A DNA stretch of 64,000 nucleotides, from assembly GCF_007860075.1 (NCBI RefSeq), contig NZ_SJPP01000001.1:1901980-1965979 (forward strand), given 5' to 3'. Source of the DNA: Symmachiella macrocystis. GTDB taxonomy: Bacteria > Planctomycetota > Planctomycetia > Planctomycetales > Planctomycetaceae. Position numbers and translations under genes: made by a program. Below, piece by piece: positions 6,443 to 16,581 of the stretch. How positions within the stretch are numbered: the first letter of the stretch is position 1; each line of letters begins with the position of its first letter. Under the pieces are notes generated by a model that saw only the letters and a list, made by a program, of their open reading frames with translations, searched no databases and was not told the origin of the DNA.

Positions 6443-7258
6443 ATGGTTGAAAAGACGTTACCCAAACTTCGTGGTTTCCCACGATGGACTAGATTTTCAA
6501 CTGGAGCAGTCATGGTAGCCCCGGCGGAAACAACCATGAACATTGCGGTCGATGTTCCTGTTGCGCCCCTGAAGGAGATCTCGTACCGCATCGCAAGTAC
6601 GCAATACGAGCGCAAGGCGGCCTTCAATCTGGTTTACGAAGCGTATGTCGAAACTGGTTTGATTGAGCCCAATGAGTTCGAAATGCGCGTGACGCCGTAC
6701 CATTTGTTGCCGACGACCAATGTTTTCATAGCGGTTTACCAGGAAGAAGTCATCGGTACGGTCAGTTTGATCGGCGACGGTGAACTTGGTCTACCGATGG
6801 ATTGCATTTATGATCGGGAGGTCAACGGCCTGAGGGACCGCGGATATTCTCTAGGCGAAGTTTCTTGTCTGGCGCACCGTCGTCAACAAGTGAAGCAGAC
6901 ATTGCCGTTGTTTGTGCAAATGACGCGGTTGATGGCTCAACATTCCCGCCAAAATGGTATGGATCAGTTTCTGATTGCCGTCCACCCCCGTCATGCACAG
7001 TTTTACATGCGGTTTATGGGATTTGAGCAAATCGGCAGCCAAAAATCCTTCCCATCGGTGAGAAATAATCCGGCTGTGGCGTGTGCCTTGAATTTCCCTC
7101 GTATTGATGTGGAACGGCCTGCCTGTTATAGCCAGTTCTTTGGGACAGCCATTCCCAGGGAAGATCTGCTGTCAACTCCGATGAACACCCTTGAGGTTGA
7201 AGAATTTGCTGATGCCGCACTGGAAGGCGGCTTAACTATCCCCAGTCTGATGTGTTAA
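6443..7258 (+). CDS. FeeM-type N-acyl amino acid synthase (GNAT fold)
   Basis: The 271-residue protein fits the FeeM / long-chain N-acyl amino acid synthase group of the GNAT superfamily. The core spans about residues 48-200: ISYRIASTQYERKAAFNLVYEAYVETGLI (the entry helix), NVFIAVYQEEVIGTVSLIGDGELGLPMD, and IAVHPRHAQFYMRFMGFEQIG, a motif typical of this family. FeeM enzymes join an acyl chain, usually from acyl-ACP, to the amino group of an amino acid such as tyrosine. It heads a same-strand cluster with an exporter, a hydrolase, a methyltransferase, an E1-like enzyme and a desaturase. Start is ambiguous: ATG 6443, or ATG 6512 with a better GGAG spacing. The acceptor amino acid cannot be deduced. 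Confidence 0.8.
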   Translation: MVEKTLPKLRGFPRWTRFSTGAVMVAPAETTMNIAVDVPVAPLKEISYRIASTQYERKAAFNLVYEAYVETGLIEPNEFEMRVTPYHLLPTTNVFIAVYQEEVIGTVSLIGDGELGLPMDCIYDREVNGLRDRGYSLGEVSCLAHRRQQVKQTLPLFVQMTRLMAQHSRQNGMDQFLIAVHPRHAQFYMRFMGFEQIGSQKSFPSVRNNPAVACALNFPRIDVERPACYSQFFGTAIPREDLLSTPMNTLEVEEFADAALEGGLTIPSLMC

Positions 7259-7304
7259 TCACTTACACACGGACGCCGACCTAGCCCCTGCTGGTGGTCG
7301 CGCG

Positions 7305-8429
7305 ATGATTTCTTTTGCCCTAAAAATTCTGCTTTCGAATCGCGGAAAACTAATCACAGCATTAACGGGAGTCATCTTCTCGTTAGTCTTGGTTAATGTT
7401 CAGGGCGGGTTGTATCTCGGGCTAATCCACAAAGCCAGTTTGTTGGTCGATCACACCGACGCCGACATCTGGGTTGGAAAGCACTTGGTCGAAAACGTCG
7501 ACTTGGCCAACGACATTCCGGTCGAATGGCTCAATCGCATCCGCGGACTTCAGGGTGTTGCACTAGCGGACCCCTATATTGTCCAGCCGAGTATTGCGAC
7601 GCTGCCCGATGGCGGTTTCGAAACGCTGATGATTATCGGCATCGACCCGCTTTCTAAGATAGGAGCTGCGTGGAATGTTGACGAAGGAGGCGAGACGTAT
7701 GTGTACCGTCCCGATTCGATCACAATCGACCGACTCGATGCACGCAAATTGGGGTATGCACAAATAGGCGACATTGTTGAAATTAGCGGGCATCGGGCAA
7801 AGATCACAGGATTTACCGACGGCGTGATTGGTTTCATGACCACGCCCTACGTATTCACCAACATCGATTCCGCACGACAGTACGCCCAAATTCGCGAGGG
7901 ATATTGCTCGTACTTTTTGATTCAAGCGGCTGACGGTGTGAATCTCAATGAGCTGAGCGACGAGATCCGGCACCTCGTGCCGAGTGCAAACGTTTATACG
8001 GCAGCCCAATTCCGCAAGATTTCTCAAGATTATTGGATGCACCGCACCGGAATTGGTATTAGTTTTGGTATGGCAACGGTCCTGGGATTATTGGTGGGCC
8101 TGTTGATGGTGGCCCAAAGTTTGTATGCGCTCGCATTGGATCACGTCAACGATTTCGCGACGCTCAAAGCGATCGGCGCGGAGAACGGTCAGATTTTACA
8201 AGTGGTGTTGGTCCAGTCCTGTACGATTGCCGTAGTGGGCACGTTGATCGGCATGGGCATCGTGTGGGTGGCGGAGACGTATTGCTCCACGCCGCTGGCA
8301 CCGATTGAAATTCCAATGCTGCTGCGCGTGGCTGGGATAGGACTGGTGGCGACAATTTGTTTGGTGGCTTCGGTATTGCCCTTCCAACGTTTACGTCGGA
8401 TTGATCCGGCCATTGTACTTCAAGGATAA
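7305..8429 (+). CDS. ABC exporter permease, DevC-like (FtsX fold)
   Basis: The 374-residue membrane protein has the MacB/FtsX layout: an N-terminal transmembrane helix (about residues 17-38), a periplasmic domain of about 200 residues, and three C-terminal helices (about 245-275, 293-320 and 330-360). The opening (KILLSNRGKLITALTGVIFSLVLVNVQGGLY followed by LVDHTDADIWV) closely resembles cyanobacterial DevC, the permease of the heterocyst glycolipid exporter. It is followed by its ATPase and then a membrane fusion protein, the full DevBCA set in the order C-A-B. A TolC-type outer membrane channel is expected as partner but none is encoded nearby. Export of the lipid made by the neighbouring enzymes is inferred. 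Confidence 0.88.
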   Translation: MISFALKILLSNRGKLITALTGVIFSLVLVNVQGGLYLGLIHKASLLVDHTDADIWVGKHLVENVDLANDIPVEWLNRIRGLQGVALADPYIVQPSIATLPDGGFETLMIIGIDPLSKIGAAWNVDEGGETYVYRPDSITIDRLDARKLGYAQIGDIVEISGHRAKITGFTDGVIGFMTTPYVFTNIDSARQYAQIREGYCSYFLIQAADGVNLNELSDEIRHLVPSANVYTAAQFRKISQDYWMHRTGIGISFGMATVLGLLVGLLMVAQSLYALALDHVNDFATLKAIGAENGQILQVVLVQSCTIAVVGTLIGMGIVWVAETYCSTPLAPIEIPMLLRVAGIGLVATICLVASVLPFQRLRRIDPAIVLQG

Positions 8430-8439
8430 ATTTAGTTCT

Positions 8440-9186
8440 GTGACTGAACACGTCATTCTCTCCAGCGGCATTGAAAAGACCTATCGGTCCGGGGCGATCA
8501 AGACGACCGTCCTGCACGGGATCGACTTGGAGGTTATGCGCGGAGAATGTGTGTTTTTGGTCGGTCCCTCGGGAAGTGGTAAAACCACACTGTTGTCGAT
8601 CCTGGGATGTATTTTATCTCCTGACAGCGGCTCGTTACAGATCTTGGATCGGGATGTCAGTCGTCTGAATGCGAAACAGCAGGCGAGGTTTCGTCGCGAA
8701 AACATTGGGTTTGTGTTTCAACGGTTTCATCTGTTTGACGGTCTACGGGCCTGGGAAAACGTGAAGGTGGCGTTGGACCTGTTGGGATACCCGTCCCGAT
8801 TGGCGCAATCCGAATCGCGGCGGCTGTTGGATTTGGTCGGACTGTCAGATCGGGCGGATCATCGCTCGACACAATTGAGCATGGGACAACGGCAGCGAGT
8901 TGCATTGGCGCGGGCTTTGGCCGGCGATCCCGATTTGATCTTGGCGGACGAACCGACCGCTTCGCTGGATGCCGAATCGGGCGCAAGTGCGATGAAGACA
9001 TTGAACACACTGGCCAAGTCATTGGGAAAAACTGTCGTCGTGGTCACGCACGACTCACGGATTTTTTCGATGGCTGACCGGATTTTGCATCTGGTCGACG
9101 GCCGGATTAATGAATCCACAACCGAACAACGAGCACGTACCACGAACTTCGCCGGGCAAACAGTGTCGGCGAATGATATTCGGTAA
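8440..9186 (+). CDS. ABC exporter ATP-binding protein, DevA-like
   Basis: A complete 248-residue ATPase of the LolD/MacB/DevA class. Visible motifs are Walker A GPSGSGKTT (42-50), the Q-loop in VFQRFHLFDG, a signature reading LSMGQ (146-150) in place of LSGGQ, Walker B LILADE (166-171) and the H-loop in VVVVTHD. GTG at 8440 was chosen, 10 bases after the permease stop and preceded by AAGGA; an upstream in-frame TTG at 8401 would lie inside the permease gene. The protein would power the FtsX-like permease from the cytoplasmic face. The signature variant G-to-M is worth noting but keeps the catalytic Ser and Gly-Gln. Confidence 0.92.
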   Translation: MTEHVILSSGIEKTYRSGAIKTTVLHGIDLEVMRGECVFLVGPSGSGKTTLLSILGCILSPDSGSLQILDRDVSRLNAKQQARFRRENIGFVFQRFHLFDGLRAWENVKVALDLLGYPSRLAQSESRRLLDLVGLSDRADHRSTQLSMGQRQRVALARALAGDPDLILADEPTASLDAESGASAMKTLNTLAKSLGKTVVVVTHDSRIFSMADRILHLVDGRINESTTEQRARTTNFAGQTVSANDIR

Positions 9187-9290
9187 TTTATTGATTGCGG
9201 AGTCGGCACAAACCTGACGGCTTACAGAAAACCAAACAACGTTTTATCAGACACAACACGCGGTCGTAATCGCGACTCGAGGGCATAGCA

Positions 9291-10442
9291 ATGCGGTGGT
9301 TATTATTAATTGTTCTCCCGATGGGCATCGGCGCTTTCGTGGCGATGACCTCGCCTGAGAAAATGCCGTGGCTGCACAATTGGTCAGCGGGCGCAGCGCC
9401 TGCGCCGGAAGCCAAGGAAACACCGTCCATTGCGGTCAACAAACGGCCGCTGATCTTTGCCAGCGGTATCATCGAAGGAGCTCAGCGTGATGTTCCCTTG
9501 CGGTTCGAGATCGTCGGACGTTTGGCGAAGGTCAATGTCAACGAAGGCCAACAAGTCAAACAGGGAGAGGTGCTGGCCGGCCTGGGTACGGAAACGTTAA
9601 AAAAACAATTGGAATTTGCGCAGGCCAAATTGGCTCTCGCTAAAAGCGAGCGGACGCGATTGTCCAACGGCGAACGGCCCGAGACGATTGAGGTCGCTAA
9701 AAACGCTCTCGTCAAAATTCGCGTGCAGTTGGAAACCGCCAAGCAAGGCTATCAACGCGGTTTGGAACTGCAAAAGAAAAACGCCATTACGGCTGAGGCT
9801 TTCGAAGAACGCCGATCGGCCTATCAGGCGGCCCTCGCGGAACAGCAATTAGAAAATTCGCGGATTAAGGAAATCGAAGCTCCCGCTCGGGAGGACGATT
9901 TGATTATTGCCGATGCCAAGATCGCTCAGGCCGAAGCAGAGTTGGGTGTCGCTCAATCCGAATTGAAAAAGGCGGAGTTAGTCGCTCCCACAGATGGGGT
10001 GATTCTCCGCGTGGGTCGCGAACCGGGACAGATGGTCGGTCCTCAGGACTTGCAGCCGTTGCTGGTCATGGTCGATGCCTCGCAAATGCGGACGCGGGCT
10101 TATGTGGAAGAATTGGATGCGTTGGCTGTCAAACCAGGCCAGCACGCCTACGTGACGGCCGATGGTGATCCTGAGACAAAATTTCACGGCAAGGTGGTTT
10201 CCTGTTCGCCGTTGATGGTTCCCAAGAAATACATGAGCAACGAACCGGGCGAGCGTATCGACGTGAAGGTGCGTGAAGTTGTCATCGTGCTGGACGAGCA
10301 GAACACCCTCGTCGTCGGCTTGCCTGTTGATGTGTTTATCGAAACGGGTGCAGACCAGGAACCGGAAGCTTCGGAAAGCAAAACCGATGCTCCGGAAGTC
10401 GTCACCACCGATGACGCGAAGAAACAACAACAACGAAATTAA
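9291..10442 (+). CDS. Membrane fusion protein of ABC exporter, DevB/HlyD-like
   Basis: The 383-residue protein begins with a single membrane anchor (RWLLLIVLPMGIGAFVAM), then has the HlyD/DevB order: a lipoyl half (FEIVGRLAKVNVNEGQQVKQGEVLAGL), a long coiled-coil hairpin (about residues 100-220, rich in Ala, Glu, Lys and Gln), the second lipoyl half (LVAPTDGVILRVGREPGQMV), and a beta-barrel domain. It would span the periplasm and link the DevC/DevA-like pump to an outer membrane channel. ATG 9291 is preceded by GAGGG at good spacing. The C-terminal 30 residues are acidic and Gln-rich and likely disordered. Confidence 0.92.
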   Translation: MRWLLLIVLPMGIGAFVAMTSPEKMPWLHNWSAGAAPAPEAKETPSIAVNKRPLIFASGIIEGAQRDVPLRFEIVGRLAKVNVNEGQQVKQGEVLAGLGTETLKKQLEFAQAKLALAKSERTRLSNGERPETIEVAKNALVKIRVQLETAKQGYQRGLELQKKNAITAEAFEERRSAYQAALAEQQLENSRIKEIEAPAREDDLIIADAKIAQAEAELGVAQSELKKAELVAPTDGVILRVGREPGQMVGPQDLQPLLVMVDASQMRTRAYVEELDALAVKPGQHAYVTADGDPETKFHGKVVSCSPLMVPKKYMSNEPGERIDVKVREVVIVLDEQNTLVVGLPVDVFIETGADQEPEASESKTDAPEVVTTDDAKKQQQRN

Positions 10443-10497
10443 TAGCGGAATCAACAACGATTCACACAATACTTGTGACTTCGGGGGGAGTCGGTTC

Positions 10498-11517
10498 ATG
10501 GAATTAAATGTTTGCATGTTAGGTGGAGGCACGCGATTGGCGGCCCATCTTGGCAGTTTGAAAGGGATCGACGAGCATGGCGGCCGCATTCGCGGCTGGG
10601 CCGGTGCGTCTGCGGGTAGCTTGGTTGCCTCCGTCCTGGCCTCCGGATTTTCGCATGATGAGGCGGTCGATCTCATGCGGGATACCGACTATCGCCAATT
10701 TTTAGACTTTCGGCCGTTGGGCATTGTCCGCGGTTATGGATTGTGCGCCGGGCGCCGCTTCGAACAATGGCTGGATAGCTTCTTGGAGGGGCGGCGTTTT
10801 TGTGATTTGCAGCACCCATTGTCTGTGGTTTGCACTGACATTCAAACGGGCGAACCGTTCATTTTCTCGAATCAAACGACACCCGATATCAAACTGGCTA
10901 CGAGTGTGCGATGTTCGATCGGAATTCCAGGCATCTTTGCCGTGCGCCGCATGCAAGGCGCGATTTTGATTGATGGGTCTTTGGCGGCAATCGACGATGA
11001 GCTGTTGTTCCCTGACAGTCCGCACGAGACCGTGACCATTCGGCTGGTGCGAAATCAGGTGGCCCGACTCGCACGCTCCAAGCAATTTGGACTCAAGACG
11101 TATGTGCAACGTGTAGCGGGAATGTTGCTAGACGCCGCCGATGAACCGAGCATCTCCGGCGATCAATGGCGGCGGACATTGTTGATCCGTACCGGTGCAC
11201 ATTCGTCGGTTAACTTTGATCTTTCGGTCCAAGAGCGGGCGGAATTGTACGCGATGGGCTATGAACAGTCTCGGAACTTTCTCGACCTGTCGGGGAGTGA
11301 AATCCAGAAGAAATCGGCCGCCCCGCCGGCCGCGACAAAGGATTATCGCGATCTTGAGGAATTGGCCGAAGATGCGGTTCGATTGGCGTGTGATACGTCA
11401 CGGACGGTCCGATTGCCTACGGACGACGGTCCGTTGCCCGCGCCGGAAAAGAAGCGGGAACAGATTCCTCACAACCCTTATACAACGATGACGGGATTCG
11501 GATTCGATGCCCTGTAA
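10498..11517 (+). CDS. Patatin-like acyl hydrolase
   Basis: The 339-residue protein has the patatin serine-aspartate dyad: the glycine-rich oxyanion segment near residues 8-14 (LGGGTRL), the nucleophile elbow GASAG (36-40, Ser38) and the Asp of ILIDGS (Asp159). Patatins hydrolyse or transfer acyl groups of phospholipids and other lipids. Here it sits between the exporter and the tailoring enzymes, so it may release acyl chains for the synthase or act on the acyl product; that is inference. The chosen ATG has GGGGGAG seven bases upstream; the frame extends further upstream, but that part overlaps the fusion-protein gene and is not protein-like. No signal peptide is visible, so it is probably cytoplasmic. 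Confidence 0.87.
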   Translation: MELNVCMLGGGTRLAAHLGSLKGIDEHGGRIRGWAGASAGSLVASVLASGFSHDEAVDLMRDTDYRQFLDFRPLGIVRGYGLCAGRRFEQWLDSFLEGRRFCDLQHPLSVVCTDIQTGEPFIFSNQTTPDIKLATSVRCSIGIPGIFAVRRMQGAILIDGSLAAIDDELLFPDSPHETVTIRLVRNQVARLARSKQFGLKTYVQRVAGMLLDAADEPSISGDQWRRTLLIRTGAHSSVNFDLSVQERAELYAMGYEQSRNFLDLSGSEIQKKSAAPPAATKDYRDLEELAEDAVRLACDTSRTVRLPTDDGPLPAPEKKREQIPHNPYTTMTGFGFDAL

Positions 11518-11654
11518 CACGCTCTTGGTTCGCCGTCGTCGATCCATGGGCTAGATACATAGTGGGATAGATACCTAATACCACCCAAACTTAAAAAACA
11601 GACCGAGTGGGATTTTGCTCGTTCTACAGTATTCGATTGAATAAGTTGGAAATC

Positions 11655-12362
11655 ATGTACGAAGTCGACTCCAACACAGCCTCATTAGCCGCGTCCTCCG
11701 CTTCACCGTCAGTCCGTCGGGTAGCGCGGGCATTCAACACGCCGTCGTGGTGGTATGACATCCGCGGCATGTTTCTGGTGACGTTCGCCTACAATTCGAC
11801 GATCTGGAAACAGGTCTCGTTTTTCGAGGGCAACTTATCAGAGAGTCATCTGGAGGTTCCGATTGGCAACGGCAGCGTGCTTGATATGTGCCTGAAGTAC
11901 CGCCGGTTGCGAAAACGGCCGACTCCCGGCGTAATTGCCATCGACGTTTCGTCTGCGATGATCGAATCAGCGACCAAGGCGTTCCGCAAGACGGAGAACG
12001 TCACAGTGCAATACGGCGATGTGGGAAAACTCGATTTCAGCGACGGGCAATTTCAGACGGTCAATATTGCCAACGGTTTTCACTGTTTCCCCGATCCGGG
12101 ATTGGCGTTGGATGAAATTTCACGCGTGCTGGCGCCCGGGGGTGTGGCGACGGCGAATGTTCTATTAAATCCCCGTGGATTGGCGCCGCTGCGTTGGTTT
12201 GCCAATCGGATCAATGGTTGGGCGATGCGGAAGGGAATTCTGATCAGTCCCTTTGATGCTGATCAAGCCCGTACATTATTCACAGAACACGGATTCGAAA
12301 TCATTGGCGATGAGGTCCGGGGCAATACGTTGTATTTGACGGTGAAAAAAACAGCGGCTTAA
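11655..12362 (+). CDS. SAM-dependent methyltransferase (Methyltransf_11-like)
   Basis: A 235-residue class I methyltransferase, related to UbiE/Methyltransf_11. Motif I is diverged (NGSVLDMCL in place of the glycine-rich VLDxGxG), while the later motifs are clear: VIAIDVSSAMIESA, VTVQYGDVGKLDFSDGQFQTVNIANGFHCFPD, and ISRVLAPGGVATANVL. The N-terminal part (FNTPSWWYDIRGMFLVTFAYNSTIWKQ) resembles enzymes that act on lipid or quinone-like substrates. ATG 11655 was preferred over GTG 11607. It follows a 137-base gap after the patatin gene, the widest gap inside the cluster, so a second promoter could lie there. A methyl ester or O-methyl modification of the cluster product is a reasonable guess. 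Confidence 0.8.
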   Translation: MYEVDSNTASLAASSASPSVRRVARAFNTPSWWYDIRGMFLVTFAYNSTIWKQVSFFEGNLSESHLEVPIGNGSVLDMCLKYRRLRKRPTPGVIAIDVSSAMIESATKAFRKTENVTVQYGDVGKLDFSDGQFQTVNIANGFHCFPDPGLALDEISRVLAPGGVATANVLLNPRGLAPLRWFANRINGWAMRKGILISPFDADQARTLFTEHGFEIIGDEVRGNTLYLTVKKTAA

Positions 12363-12422
12363 TCCGCAGAACATTCGTGCCGCTTCGTCGACAACCCTCA
12401 GTCAGAGAATGAAAACACTCCC

Positions 12423-13334
12423 ATGTCCGCAGCTACTCAAGCGATCCCGATTAACGATGCGACGCAACCTTGGTCTTATGACGAAGCGTTTTCGCGGCAT
12501 AGTGGATTGATCTCGCCCGAACAGCAACAAAAGCTCCGCCACAGTTGTGTGGCAATTGCCGGTATGGGAGGCGTGGGAGGGAGTCATCTCGCGACCTTGG
12601 CGCGGTTGGGGATCACTCGATTTCGCATCGCCGACCCCGATCATTACGATGTCGCCAACACCAACCGGCAATATGGCGCCAAGTCGTCGACTGTAGGAGA
12701 ACCGAAGGTTGAGGTGATGTCGAAAATCGCTCGCGACATCAATCCTGAAATCGAAATCGATGCCTGGCATCGCCCGCTTGCCTTGGACAATTGCCACGAA
12801 TTCCTGGACGGCGTGGATGTACTGCTCGACGGCATGGACCTATTGAAAACTGACGTCCGGCGGACGGTGTTCAAAGTCGCGGCTGAACAAGGAACACATG
12901 TGGTCACCGCCGGTCCGTTTGGATTCAGCATCGGTTGGATGGTGTTCGAACCGGGCGGAATTGGCTTTGACGACTATTTTGACATGCATGACGGGCAAAC
13001 ACCGTTTGAACAGATGTTGAATTTCATCGGCGGGCTCACGCCCGATACGCTGTACCTGAAATACATGGACGTCACCAAAGAACAATTTACGGACAAATCG
13101 ATTCCCTCGCTAGGACTAGCCTGTCAAATGTGCGCGGGCGTGGCGGCGACGGAAGTGACCAAAATTTTGATCGGTGTGGGACGGGTCAAGGCGGCTCCCT
13201 ACTATTTCCAATTCGATGCATTGCTGCAGAAGTTCCGGCATGGCAAGCTTCGCGGCGGCAATCGCCATCCTAAACAACGGCTCAAGCTGTGGCTCGCGAA
13301 ACGTCAGTTTCGCAAAATGGGCCTACTGGATTAA
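12423..13334 (+). CDS. ThiF/MoeB/E1-like adenylyltransferase
   Basis: The 303-residue protein has the E1-like adenylation fold: the nucleotide loop GMGGVGG (47-53), the acidic strand end IADPDHYDV, the Arg finger region NTNRQYG and Lys95 in GEPKVEV, then the LLDGMDLLKTDVRR segment. E1-like enzymes adenylate a C-terminal carboxylate, usually of a small ubiquitin-like or sulfur-carrier protein, and some act on peptides. The two zinc-binding CxxC pairs of ThiF and MoeB are not present; only one CQMC occurs, near residue 235, in a position normally hydrophobic. No ThiS, MoaD or ubiquitin-like partner is encoded nearby. A direct role in activating the carboxylate of an acyl amino acid is a hypothesis only. 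Confidence 0.85.
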   Translation: MSAATQAIPINDATQPWSYDEAFSRHSGLISPEQQQKLRHSCVAIAGMGGVGGSHLATLARLGITRFRIADPDHYDVANTNRQYGAKSSTVGEPKVEVMSKIARDINPEIEIDAWHRPLALDNCHEFLDGVDVLLDGMDLLKTDVRRTVFKVAAEQGTHVVTAGPFGFSIGWMVFEPGGIGFDDYFDMHDGQTPFEQMLNFIGGLTPDTLYLKYMDVTKEQFTDKSIPSLGLACQMCAGVAATEVTKILIGVGRVKAAPYYFQFDALLQKFRHGKLRGGNRHPKQRLKLWLAKRQFRKMGLLD

Positions 13335-13348
13335 CGGGAGTCACGACA

Positions 13349-14407
13349 ATGTCCACAACCACGAACGACGATCAAGCAACGCAACTGGCAGAAACGCACG
13401 AACTTGCCGCGACTGAGATGGATGAAATCCTCTCTGGTCAAACGCAACATCGCGCCGAGACAGACGCCGTCCCGCCGGGAGAAATCCGGGTCACGGATGA
13501 GTTTCGTCAGCGACTTCGCGAATTGTCAAAACTTACCCCGGGACGAGGTCTAACGGCTATCGCTTGCGACTGGGCAATGATCGTCGCCTGCTTTACAGCA
13601 GCAATCATGTTTCCGCATCCATTGGTGTGGGTTTGCTGCGCGATTCTGATTGCAGCGCGTCAGCATGCGTTGTTGATCATCATGCACGATGCATCGCATT
13701 TTCGTATTGTTTCCAGTCGCCGTTGGAATGACCGATTGAGCAATTGGTTGCTGGCTTGGCCGGTGTTGGTTTCGACCGAAGGATATCGGCAAAACCACCT
13801 GGCGCATCACAGTCATCTGAACACCGATGAGGACCCGGATTGGACCCGCAAAGAAGGCAAACCGGAATGGGAGTTCCCCAAGACCCGCTGGGCATTGGCC
13901 AAATTGCTGGCGCGCGACCTGTGTGGCGGCGGTTTTTTGGACATGCTCAAAGCGATTGGTGATCTCTCCAACCAAAAGCCCAAGGCGGACGAGGCCAAGC
14001 CGCGTCCCTGGGGCAAGTTATGTTATTACGCATTGCTGGCCACAGCGGTGACCTTAACCGGCATGTGGGTGCCCGTGTTGTTGTTGTGGTACCTGCCGGC
14101 GTTTACGATTCTGCCCGTGATTTTGCGTTTGCGAAGTATCGCGGAGCATTTTGGATTGGAAGGCGAACACGATTTGAACATGTCACGCAACTTCGCTGCG
14201 GGACCGGTGGAGCGATTGTTGTTTGCGCCGCACAATGTGGGCTACCACCTGGACCACCATTTGTTCCCATCGGTGCCGTATTACAATCTCCCGCAGTTAC
14301 ATGCCGCACTGCTGCAGCATCCCGAATACGCCGACCACGCGCATCAAAACGATTCGCTGCTGGGGCTGCGAGGCAAAAGCGTGCTCAACGACGTCTTGCC
14401 CGCCTAA
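13349..14407 (+). CDS. Membrane fatty acid desaturase-like di-iron enzyme
   Basis: A 352-residue integral membrane desaturase or hydroxylase. The three histidine clusters that bind the two irons are HDASH (113-117), HLAHH (150-154) and HLDHH (300-304, within NVGYHLDHHLFPSVP). Hydrophobic segments lie near 70-108, 132-142 and 228-260. The family desaturates or hydroxylates acyl chains with oxygen and an electron donor. ATG 13349 was chosen because GGGAG precedes it by 9 bases; it begins 14 bases after the ThiF-like gene, so the two are surely co-transcribed. It could introduce a double bond into the acyl chain or amino acid part of the cluster product. Confidence 0.9.
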   Translation: MSTTTNDDQATQLAETHELAATEMDEILSGQTQHRAETDAVPPGEIRVTDEFRQRLRELSKLTPGRGLTAIACDWAMIVACFTAAIMFPHPLVWVCCAILIAARQHALLIIMHDASHFRIVSSRRWNDRLSNWLLAWPVLVSTEGYRQNHLAHHSHLNTDEDPDWTRKEGKPEWEFPKTRWALAKLLARDLCGGGFLDMLKAIGDLSNQKPKADEAKPRPWGKLCYYALLATAVTLTGMWVPVLLLWYLPAFTILPVILRLRSIAEHFGLEGEHDLNMSRNFAAGPVERLLFAPHNVGYHLDHHLFPSVPYYNLPQLHAALLQHPEYADHAHQNDSLLGLRGKSVLNDVLPA

Positions 14408-14559: not shown

Positions 14560-16581
14560 CTACAACAAGCCAAACTTTTGTAGGGTGATCGTGGCGGAGA
14601 TGGTGGCGACCGTCCAGAAGAAACAGCCCGACAAGAACAACGTGATGCGGGCGAACCAACCGGGGCGGATTTGTTGCGGCAACAGCACCAAGTTCAGCCA
14701 CAAGGTGTGCCAACAACTGAATCCCAAAGCGAAGTTGAAAATCGTCGTCGCGATCAACAAGAGCGTGACCGGTTTGCCGAGCGATAACATGGTCATTCCG
14801 AACGTCGCATACACCGCAAGTACGGCAAAATAGACGTAACGGATATGTTTGGGCTCGACTTTGTGAAGTCGCGGACTGGATGTCCAGAAGACATCGACCC
14901 AGCGGCGAATCACGCCATCCGCCGAGGTGGCCATACTGGGTGCTAACACGAGAAATCCGCAGAACAGCGTCATGAACCAAGCCAATTGCCCCAGCGTGCC
15001 GCCCACCGCATCCTGCACAGCTCCGGCGGTCATACCGGCGGCCGTCCATTGGTCGTCGATGACGGCGCCTCGCGGTAAAAATTGTACCGAGAGCATACTG
15101 GGCAGCGCCAACCCAAAGAAGCAAGCCGGCATCCAGACGACGAGTTGGTCGCGGAGAATGTGTTTGTACCAACGCTTCCAGCGGGGCAGGCTTTCCTCGT
15201 TGACGACAAAGACGGTTCCCTCGTGCGAGAGTTCCAGATCCTGGCCGCCGACAACGCTGGGAATGGCTCCGACAAGGTGCCCCATGCCCCAACCTTGGTC
15301 GCGGGTGTAATTGCTGACCGGAGTGTTGGACAGTCCTCCCGAGCCGGATATCGCCACCAACGCCGACAGAAACGCGATCATCGACCAGTCGATATCGGGC
15401 ATTGGTTCGCCGCGATACAGCGTGGTGAAAATGTTGGCGACATTGTCGCCGTCGCGGGTCACGTGGCCATCTTTGTTGGGACCGTCGATATCAACAAATT
15501 TGTCCAATTGTCCGTCTTGATCCGCATCGAGCGGAAATTCTGTGTCCGGCACGTCGTCGTTGTTGGTGTCGAGCAACACCGTCTTATCCGGTTGGCCATC
15601 CTTGTCCAAGTCGGGCCAATAGACCGTTTCGTCCCCTTGTTGGATGGTCACCATATTGTCGGGTTGGCCGGTTTCGTAGATATCCGTCGCATCCGGTTTT
15701 CCATCACCATCGGAATCCAACAACGGTTTGAGCATCGGTTCCTTGACGTCGAGTCGCCCGTCGTGGTCCCAGTCCTCGCCGGGGTCCAGTTTTCCATTGT
15801 GGTTGAGATCCTCACCGCGACGGATGGGGACGTTGCCGAATTTGACAAAGCCGCCAAAGATGTCGACCCAGGTGGCGGTGTGGGAATAGAACATGCCCAA
15901 GACAACCAAAAAGCCCAAGACGGTAATAATCTTGAACGTCATAAGCGCTTTGAGCGAGTTGTAGATCTTTCCGCCAAAGATCAACGGAATCATGGCAGCC
16001 AGAAAAATCCCATAACCCAAGTACTTGAGCAGATGCCGTTCATAGACCACGTTTTCGGGATCGGGAATATGCCCCAGAATGACGGCCGCTAAAGGTGTCG
16101 CTGCGTTGGCCGCCAGATAGGGAAACACAGATCCAAAATCGAGCAGCAGATAGATGAAGACCCAAAATGTGGGGCCGGGGACCATGCGGAATTTGCCGGT
16201 GAAGATCGGCTCGCCGGTATAGAGCGTGTAACGGCTGATCTCCAAGTTGTAGATCACTTGCCCCAGGATACTGAGCGTCGCTAACCACAACAGGCTGCCG
16301 CCATATTTCGCGGTTACCAAAGGCCCCATCAGCCACTCGCCGCCGCCGATCGCCGACCCACCCATCAGTAAGCCCGGTCCGAGCAACAACGTCCACTGCC
16401 TCCAACCAAATTTGGGGGCGTCGATCAATTCCCCCACATTCCAGGCCGGCATGTTGGCGACGCCCGGCATTTGGTCTTTGGGAACTTTTCTTTTACCGGT
16501 ATCGAGTTCAGTCACGTCATCGGCGGAGAATTGCGGCGTCTCGGACATATTCAGCTCGCTTGTGGCGGTTGAGTCATTCAA
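14560..16581 (-). CDS. Nramp-like membrane transporter with inserted Asp-rich Ca-binding domain
   Basis: The 673-residue protein has about 11 hydrophobic segments and opens with the Nramp-like LLLGPGLLMGGSAIGGGEWLMGPLVTAKYGG. The usual Nramp metal motif DPGN is replaced by GGGEW-type sequence, so the transported ion is uncertain. Between the helix near residue 222-234 and the one near 400-412 lies an insert of about 125 residues (256-382) packed with DxDxDG-type calcium loops: DLNHNGKLD, DWDHDGRLD, DSDGDGKPD, DLDKDGQPD, DTNNDDVPD and DADQDGQLD. Such loops resemble thrombospondin type 3 or dockerin repeats and normally fold outside the cytoplasm with calcium. Start is ATG 16581; ATG 16548 is an alternative. 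Upstream neighbour usp is on the same strand. Confidence 0.8.
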   Translation of the reverse strand: MNDSTATSELNMSETPQFSADDVTELDTGKRKVPKDQMPGVANMPAWNVGELIDAPKFGWRQWTLLLGPGLLMGGSAIGGGEWLMGPLVTAKYGGSLLWLATLSILGQVIYNLEISRYTLYTGEPIFTGKFRMVPGPTFWVFIYLLLDFGSVFPYLAANAATPLAAVILGHIPDPENVVYERHLLKYLGYGIFLAAMIPLIFGGKIYNSLKALMTFKIITVLGFLVVLGMFYSHTATWVDIFGGFVKFGNVPIRRGEDLNHNGKLDPGEDWDHDGRLDVKEPMLKPLLDSDGDGKPDATDIYETGQPDNMVTIQQGDETVYWPDLDKDGQPDKTVLLDTNNDDVPDTEFPLDADQDGQLDKFVDIDGPNKDGHVTRDGDNVANIFTTLYRGEPMPDIDWSMIAFLSALVAISGSGGLSNTPVSNYTRDQGWGMGHLVGAIPSVVGGQDLELSHEGTVFVVNEESLPRWKRWYKHILRDQLVVWMPACFFGLALPSMLSVQFLPRGAVIDDQWTAAGMTAGAVQDAVGGTLGQLAWFMTLFCGFLVLAPSMATSADGVIRRWVDVFWTSSPRLHKVEPKHIRYVYFAVLAVYATFGMTMLSLGKPVTLLLIATTIFNFALGFSCWHTLWLNLVLLPQQIRPGWFARITLFLSGCFFWTVATISATITLQKFGLL

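Follow-up and report, generated by a model that had tools for sequence, protein, structure and literature searches.

We focus here on a group of eight genes of the planctomycete Symmachiella macrocystis, located in a stretch of 64,000 nucleotides (contig NZ_SJPP01000001.1, positions 1,901,980 to 1,965,979), which is referred to as the window. Between positions 6443 and 14407, the plus strand of the window carries eight co-directional open reading frames (ORFs) without any further plausible gene between them (Table 1). The proteins were assigned to families by Pfam and NCBIfam profile searches against curated cut-offs. An earlier reading, made from the sequence only, had described eight plus-strand genes separated by small gaps with nothing else in between, a layout that the ORF check and the Pfam families bear out; with refined starts and checked codons, the gaps measure about 46, 10, 104, 55, 137, 60 and 14 bases in gene order.

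Table 1. Genes of the operon, in window coordinates
Predicted product	Position	Strand	Features
FeeM-type N-acyl amino acid synthase	6443..7258	+	271 aa; refined start 6443
MacB/DevC-type ABC exporter permease	7305..8429	+	Pfam FtsX, MacB_PCD; TIGR01185 devC 104 bits
DevA/MacB-type ATP-binding subunit	8440..9186	+	GTG start; ABC_tran 119 bits; TIGR02982 DevA 234 bits
HlyD/DevB-type periplasmic adaptor	9291..10442	+	HlyD_3, HlyD_D23; TIGR02971 95 bits
Patatin-like hydrolase/acyltransferase	10498..11517	+	ATG start; PF01734 90 bits
Class I S-adenosylmethionine (SAM) methyltransferase, distinct subfamily	11655..12362	+	ATG start; Methyltransf_11 53 bits
ThiF-family adenylating cyclase (predicted oxazolone former)	12423..13334	+	Pfam ThiF 158 bits; NF006077 378 bits
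Membrane fatty-acid-desaturase-family di-iron oxygenase	13349..14407	+	ATG start; PF00487 FA_desaturase 146 bits

The synthase and the ThiF-like cyclase

The first gene codes for a FeeM-type N-acyl amino acid synthase, a secure class assignment from which the activity is predicted. Residues 59-217 match family PF21926 with 162.4 bits, against a cut-off of 27, phmmer aligns the protein with the FeeM structure 2G0B (E 6e-14), and chains of 2G0B occupy the top six positions in a Foldseek search with the predicted model (E 6e-13 to 2e-11), the next GNAT match following at 1e-6. The FeeM-like synthase announced by the sequence-only reading is thus confirmed by score, sequence match and fold. Only the core of the model is informative, since the mean pLDDT (predicted local distance difference test) is 63.5, with values mostly of 70-90 in the core and low confidence in additional segments at both termini. 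A tree of 101 FeeM sequences places the window protein among 54 planctomycete rows with a branch support of 96 (Shimodaira-Hasegawa-like approximate likelihood ratio test, SH-aLRT), in a group that includes the FeeM of locus L159 of Stieleria neptunia Enr13 (genome G737). FeeM matches at E ≤ 1e-15 were found in 26 of 392 genomes of the phylum, and the window genome, which comprises 7.57 Mb in six contigs and is 96.6% complete, holds a single match at E ≤ 0.001. Three distant planctomycetes (G076, G017 and G324) carry at least nine FeeM matches each, spread over many contigs, and thus display large FeeM expansions.

With regard to the seventh gene, the best curated NCBIfam match of its ThiF-like product is NF006077, with a score above the cut-off of 266 bits, alongside PRK14851 (335 bits) and PRK14852 (251 bits). 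The latter two models, both titled 'hypothetical protein', span a ThiF-flavin oxidase fusion (PRK14851) and a FeeM-ThiF-flavin oxidase fusion (PRK14852). The window FeeM, for which PRK14852 is the sole NCBIfam match at E ≤ 0.01, corresponds to the first part of this fusion and the window ThiF to its middle part, both scoring below the whole-fusion cut-offs. In the window operon, the N-acyltransferase and the ThiF-like cyclase occur together, five genes apart; in G324, they are joined in a 661-residue FeeM-ThiF fusion (L190:11485-13470) immediately upstream of a DevC-type permease. The alignment of 20 ThiF sequences, including that of the window, reveals 35 invariant columns, among them R25, D71, D73, N79, R82, K95, D132 and D136; by analogy with MoeB/ThiF, we take R25, R82, K95, D136 and others to be ATP-binding positions. 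The predicted fold resembles that of E. coli ThiF (ThiF/MoeB fold, mean pLDDT 80). ThiF was found in 13 of 392 genomes of the phylum.

In the TyzA/TyzB/TyzC and TrzA/TrzS systems, N-acylation of an amino acid is followed by ATP-driven closure of an oxazolone and by desaturation by a nitroreductase-family flavin oxidase (PMC10404671, PMC12856293, excerpts), and the ring-closure logic has already been proposed for stieleriacines (PMC7293339, excerpt). The oxazolone is subject to hydrolysis (PMC12856293). Judging from these Tyz/Trz/Oxz relatives and from the conserved positions, the ThiF-like protein likely closes a ring. Its gene is the most telling one of the locus, and the sequence-only reading had missed its role. 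The listed literature on AclA, a structure match of the ThiF-like protein, holds nothing relevant. NF006077, NF011424 and NF011425, three models named 'hypothetical protein', represent proteins of the ThiF, ThiF-oxidase and FeeM-ThiF-oxidase types encoded at acyl-oxazolone-type loci, and the published biochemistry could supply names for them.

A methyltransferase in the place of the flavin oxidase

In what follows, NTR designates the nitroreductase-family flavin oxidase (FDO), and MT the window-type subfamily of SAM methyltransferases, recognisable in alignments by the motifs WWY..RG and HCFP. No flavin oxidase is present among the eight operon genes. A near-twin of the same genus (G519) has all eight genes in identical order, yet it is hardly independent of the window, being 96-99% identical. 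In a second congener (G520, 48-81% identical), seven of the eight genes are kept in order, NTR replaces MT and a further desaturase gene is added, which gives FeeM, permease, ATPase, adaptor, patatin, NTR, ThiF, desaturase, desaturase; in G291 the order is FeeM, NTR, ThiF, desaturase, desaturase. MT adjoins ThiF in the window, G519 and G087. A search of these three whole genomes with the oxidase of G520 yielded no NTR relative at E ≤ 1e-5, while NTR is present in G520 and G291, from which the MT orthologue is absent (best score 28 bits, or none at E ≤ 1e-5). The methyltransferase thus occupies the spot of the relatives' flavin oxidase, which shows a gene replacement.

MT relatives at E ≤ 1e-20 are restricted to 7 of 352 genomes of the phylum, and ThiF lies at most 6.1 kb away from MT in G000 (the window genome), G087, G324, G017, G110 and G279. 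Among 39 ThiF rows, eight have MT within 8 kb and 22 have NTR, either fused or at no more than this distance, both are never found together, and nine rows, two of which end at a contig edge, have neither (hypergeometric P 4e-4, kinship ignored); the rows are not a random sample, since the loci were fetched for FeeM, ThiF or DevC matches. Ten of the counted NTR proteins, low scorers included, were confirmed with NCBIfam as Acg/TrzS-type oxidases. No hidden nitroreductase was detected in eight neighbouring ORFs scanned at MT-type loci (a subset of the neighbours), nor in a ninth ORF at the FeeM-patatin locus L099. The ThiF tree requires at least six changes of state, and the non-overlap of the two partners is suggestive, short of phylogeny-proof. 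Members of the MT subfamily score 356-388 bits among themselves, versus 49.9 bits for the methyltransferase of the S. neptunia locus L196, and no hit was obtained in the S. maiorica-like locus L227; the window MT is hence not orthologous to the Stieleria methyltransferases. Other methyltransferase types adjoin NTR in Stieleria-family loci (L196 and L198).

Between the window and G520, identity reaches 77% for FeeM, 74% for the permease, 81% for the ATPase, 60% for the adaptor, 67% for the patatin and 71% for the second desaturase, and only 48% for ThiF, while G520 and G291 share 62% identity in ThiF but 46% in FeeM. These figures suggest an exchangeable cassette in which ThiF travels together with its tailoring partner.

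With low confidence, we can propose that MT acts on enzyme-made oxazolones, as an alpha-C-methyltransferase (or 5-O-methyltransferase). Closure of the ring would acidify the alpha proton, after which a flavin oxidase would remove the proton to yield a dehydroamino acid, or MT would methylate the carbon to yield a quaternary alpha-methyl amino acid. As a quaternary carbon cannot be desaturated, MT and NTR would be alternatives, which matches the pattern observed. If so, ThiF would represent a common activation hub with interchangeable tailoring partners, and a methyltransferase acting on the oxazolone would provide alpha,alpha-disubstituted amino acids by a new enzymatic route. MacIntyre reportedly described in 2019 an N-acyltyrosine bearing an alpha-methyl group from a sponge bacterium. 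In the open-licence literature, no published link between a methyltransferase and an oxazolone was found.

Exporter, lipid-type enzymes and surroundings of the operon

Genes two to four code for the permease, ATPase and adaptor of a MacB/DevBCA-type exporter. The 'DevBCA-like' label of the sequence-only reading holds for the superfamilies of the three subunits but is loose, since all of them score below the NCBIfam cut-offs (296 bits for TIGR02982, 290 for TIGR01185 and 129 for TIGR02971), and true DevBCA membership is rejected. The same reading regarded the exporter as part of the function of the locus, and the co-inheritance of its genes with FeeM agrees with this. When an exporter orthologue is defined as a permease match at E ≤ 1e-60, 34 of the 241 genomes of the family to which S. 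neptunia belongs (the Stieleria family) contain one, and 33 of these 34 possess FeeM at E ≤ 1e-15, versus 38 of 241 overall (Fisher P 4e-34, kinship ignored); by a hand count from coordinates that includes four weak FeeMs, FeeM lies within 10 kb of the permease in 26 of the 34. The orthologue occurs in 13 of 170 genomes of the window's own family, nine of them with a FeeM match at E ≤ 1e-3 (P 1e-5, kinship ignored) and seven with FeeM next door. This co-inheritance is strong and, in two planctomycete families, links N-acyl amino acid synthases with an exporter of the MacB/DevBCA type; the cargo would be the N-acyl amino acid product.

No published link of an exporter to N-acyl amino acid synthases was found in the open-licence literature. 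The S. maiorica cluster has been reported to contain unnamed putative transporters whose role is without clear indication (PMC7293339, excerpt), and the words 'transporter' and 'export' are absent from the main text of the 2025 S. neptunia paper (PMC12479983). At L202-L207, from six genomes of the window's family in which pump genes stand without a nearby FeeM, one neighbouring ORF at each of five loci codes for a kinase, an S51 peptidase/SLH protein, a PQQ propeller, an M20 peptidase and a kelch protein, with no common partner.

The nearest NCBIfam model of the desaturase is GntB (NF041365), an arginine hydroxylase, whose membership is rejected at 149 bits against a cut-off of 380. Homologues of the desaturase adjoin ThiF in G520, G291 and G672 and lie one gene off in G735; that of G672, a member of the Stieleria family, is 54% identical to the window protein and adjoins ThiF and NTR. 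Since it coexists with NTR in G520, G291 and G672, the desaturase does not appear to be a substitute for the flavin oxidase, and this role is rejected. The sequence-only reading had considered it as the maker of the dehydrotyrosine bond, a view that finds no backing, given that the characterised relatives employ the nitroreductase-family flavin oxidase (PMC10404671, PMC12856293, excerpts), of which no relative was found in the window genome at E ≤ 1e-5. Beside the desaturase of G672, a PEP-CTERM-motif protein and a glycosyltransferase-like gene are present (L209:87-1013 and 1253-2536). Elsewhere, a patatin lies at most 2 kb from FeeM in 10 of 81 locus pieces that carry FeeM (with overlaps between some pieces), L159 included. 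In L159, the patatin gene (7994-8974) stands divergently beside the putative nasY1 FeeM, and comparable pairs exist in several Stieleria-group genomes.

The conservation of the locus as a unit, on which the sequence-only reading had made its proposal depend, holds in part. The operon is complete in the near-twin, seven of its eight genes are kept in the congener G520, and smaller cores occur across the phylum; among 12 family loci with a FeeM above 100 bits (that of the window and 11 others from its family, at least three of which end at contig edges), the complete set is restricted to the window and G519, so that a widespread eight-gene set is rejected. Neither flank looks like an operon part: a methyltransferase-domain protein is encoded 1.2 kb upstream, and a membrane protein on the minus strand downstream. 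The membrane protein at 14560-16581 of the minus strand comprises 673 residues with an internal Asp-rich run of D-x-D-x-D-type repeats, and has no Pfam match at E ≤ 0.001.

Proposed pathway, alternatives and known systems

Taken together, we read the locus, with a probability of roughly 0.7, as an operon that makes and exports a modified N-acyl amino acid and that varies the stieleriacine and acyl-oxazolone types; it is filed as a variant and not as a member because the flavin oxidase, a defining feature of each, is missing. The FeeM-type synthase, whose family is established, would N-acylate an amino acid, probably an aromatic one, with a fatty acyl group. The ThiF-like enzyme would then adenylate the free carboxylate, enabling the amide oxygen to close a five-membered oxazolone. 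In place of the alpha,beta-desaturating flavin oxidase, the SAM methyltransferase would methylate the acyl amino acid or its oxazolone, the ring of which may hydrolyse later. The desaturase-family oxygenase would modify the acyl chain or the amino acid, the patatin might serve as an editing hydrolase or as an acyltransferase, and the MacB/DevBCA-type pump would finally expel the product. The pathway class suggested by the sequence-only reading, in which an N-acyl amino acid or similar lipid is made, tailored and exported, was therefore well chosen. Since this compact operon retains the puzzling ThiF step of stieleriacine-type pathways but has another enzyme instead of the oxidase, what ring closure is for becomes testable apart from desaturation.

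Several observations weigh against this reading. According to PMC12479983 (excerpt), no acyl-oxazolone was seen in producers of stieleriacine, kyonggic acid or thalassotalic acid, and deletion of nasY2, the synthase gene of an exporter-bearing Stieleria locus described below, left stieleriacines unchanged, while deletion of nasY1 cut them. The tie between exporter and FeeM is strong but not exclusive, because six of the 13 exporter genomes of the window's family (G400, G434, G436, G450, G494 and G501) lack FeeM in the stretch examined, and four of its 11 strong-FeeM genomes (G291, G440, G443 and G444) lack the exporter orthologue. The exclusion between MT and NTR depends on about six separate MT loci, since the window hardly differs from G519 and a single MT serves two ThiF rows of G324; phylogeny-aware pairs number none in the same direction and about three in the opposite one (P 0.125-0.5), and neither partner is present in seven ThiF rows whose flanks extend for 2 kb or more on both sides. 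In G076, MT is the next gene after a FeeM on a contig of 10.9 kb that has no ThiF, and the methyltransferase may for this reason not need an oxazolone. A swap of ThiF in G520 falls short of significance by formal testing, as the approximately unbiased (AU) test does not reject a shared ancestry of the proteins from the window and G520 (P 0.126).

The locus might also produce ordinary stieleriacines, i.e., N-acyl 2,3-dehydrotyrosines, dehydrogenated by an unrelated oxidase encoded elsewhere or by the membrane desaturase. The gene content overlaps with the published S. maiorica candidate cluster except for NTR (PMC7293339, excerpt), and the methyltransferase could be a ring methylase; we nevertheless consider this unlikely, given the lack of an oxidase relative at E ≤ 1e-5 in a genome of such completeness, the coexistence of desaturase homologues with NTR, which does not suggest a substitute, and a methyltransferase subfamily unlike both Stieleria enzymes. 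A stronger candidate, though not one we would favour, is that the methyltransferase acts on the aromatic ring, a hydroxyl or the carboxylate (yielding an N-acyl amino acid methyl ester), and that its separation from NTR represents a sampling accident. Its best weak profile matches are UbiE/MenG-type methylases, stieleriacines bear C- or O-methyl groups on the ring (PMC12479983, excerpt), and the G076 pair of MT and FeeM fits with this idea; on the other side, other methyltransferase types do stand near NTR (L196 and L198), as the window subfamily does in 0 of the 39 ThiF rows.

With regard to the product, a structural aminolipid of the envelope or outer membrane, for which the pump would act as a lipid exporter, appears doubtful compared with a released small molecule: the kinship of the exporter to MacB/DevBCA and the lipid-type nature of patatin and desaturase point in this direction, but Pfam reveals no acyltransferase family other than FeeM among the eight proteins, unless the patatin acts as one. 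Two further explanations are very improbable. One holds that the FeeM belongs to the PEP-CTERM/exosortase-linked kind of synthase, the remainder of the operon being unrelated; work by Craig in 2011 reportedly links other Gram-negative synthases to this system, and a PEP-CTERM-motif protein occurs in the related locus L209, but Pfam finds no exosortase among the eight proteins (the search covered the operon, not the remainder of the genome), PRK14852 is the only NCBIfam match of the FeeM at E ≤ 0.01, and the ties to exporter and ThiF are tight. The other assigns ThiF to thiamine or molybdopterin synthesis or to ubiquitin-like protein modification, in line with its superfamily and fold; a cofactor role is rejected, as the protein stays far below the cut-offs of ThiF, MoeB and TcdA but exceeds that of NF006077, Pfam detects neither ThiS nor MoaD nor any ubiquitin-like protein in the operon, and its genomic partners are FeeM, NTR and MT.

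A variant N-acyl amino acid operon, the reading we prefer, has its closest counterparts in Stieleria. The S. maiorica candidate cluster comprises a desaturase, a methyltransferase, a ThiF protein annotated as tRNA t6A dehydratase, an oxidoreductase, four synthases and the transporters mentioned above (PMC7293339, excerpt). In G735, an S. maiorica-like genome, a homologue of the desaturase (106 bits), a 450-residue ORF without similarity to the window MT, ThiF, NTR, FeeM genes (four in 15 kb) and the exporter are distributed over about 46 kb, in an order that agrees with the published one (PMC7293339, excerpt); the exporter may fall outside the published borders, as it lies about 4 kb past the fourth FeeM. 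The S. maiorica-like cluster is split between ThiF and NTR by two giant ORFs that lie in tandem on the minus strand (L226:2-12909) and resemble each other at their starts; one comprises 2,062 residues, and the other, which runs off the locus, at least 2,039. Locus L196 of S. neptunia Enr13 carries a methyltransferase, ThiF, NTR, a 151-residue ORF, permease, ATPase, adaptor and a weak FeeM, a gene count that fits the published numbering from Enr13x_31210 (methyltransferase), 31220 (ThiF) and 31230 (nitroreductase) to 31280 (NasY2) (PMC12479983, excerpt) and by which we match it to the nasY2 locus. Its MacB/DevBCA-type exporter (L196:9531-12474) stands between ThiF/NTR and the FeeM matched to nasY2. 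From the spacing of gene numbers, the FeeM of L159 would correspond to nasY1, the main stieleriacine synthase.

The stieleriacine clusters of S. maiorica Mal15 and S. neptunia Enr13 thus share with the window one or more synthases, a methyltransferase, ThiF, a MacB/DevBCA-type exporter in or near the cluster and, in S. maiorica, the desaturase. They carry the nitroreductase that the window lacks, whereas the window has a methyltransferase of another subfamily, includes a patatin in the operon and keeps all eight genes in one direction. The hint at stieleriacines in the sequence-only reading was accordingly pertinent as to the overlap in gene set and the homology of desaturase, ThiF and exporter in G735, but not as to the known dehydrotyrosine step, whose oxidase is missing from the window genome at E ≤ 1e-5.

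Beyond stieleriacines, the acyl-oxazolone pathways tyzABC and trzAS (PMC10404671, PMC12856293, excerpts), as well as oxzAB, known here only through those papers, have in common with the window an N-acyltransferase neighbouring a ThiF-like ATP-dependent cyclase; they possess the defining flavin oxidase, which the window lacks, and the window adds methyltransferase, desaturase, patatin and exporter. FeeM of structure 2G0B, an N-acyl amino acid synthase from environmental DNA, shares family PF21926 and fold with the window synthase, which differs by its extra terminal stretches, and it comes from a different operon. The DevBCA/MacAB tripartite exporters share the permease, ATPase and adaptor superfamilies, the window subunits differing in that all fall below the DevA, DevB and DevC cut-offs, and GntB, the L-arginine hydroxylase of guanitoxin biosynthesis, is the nearest curated, though far removed, relative of the desaturase.

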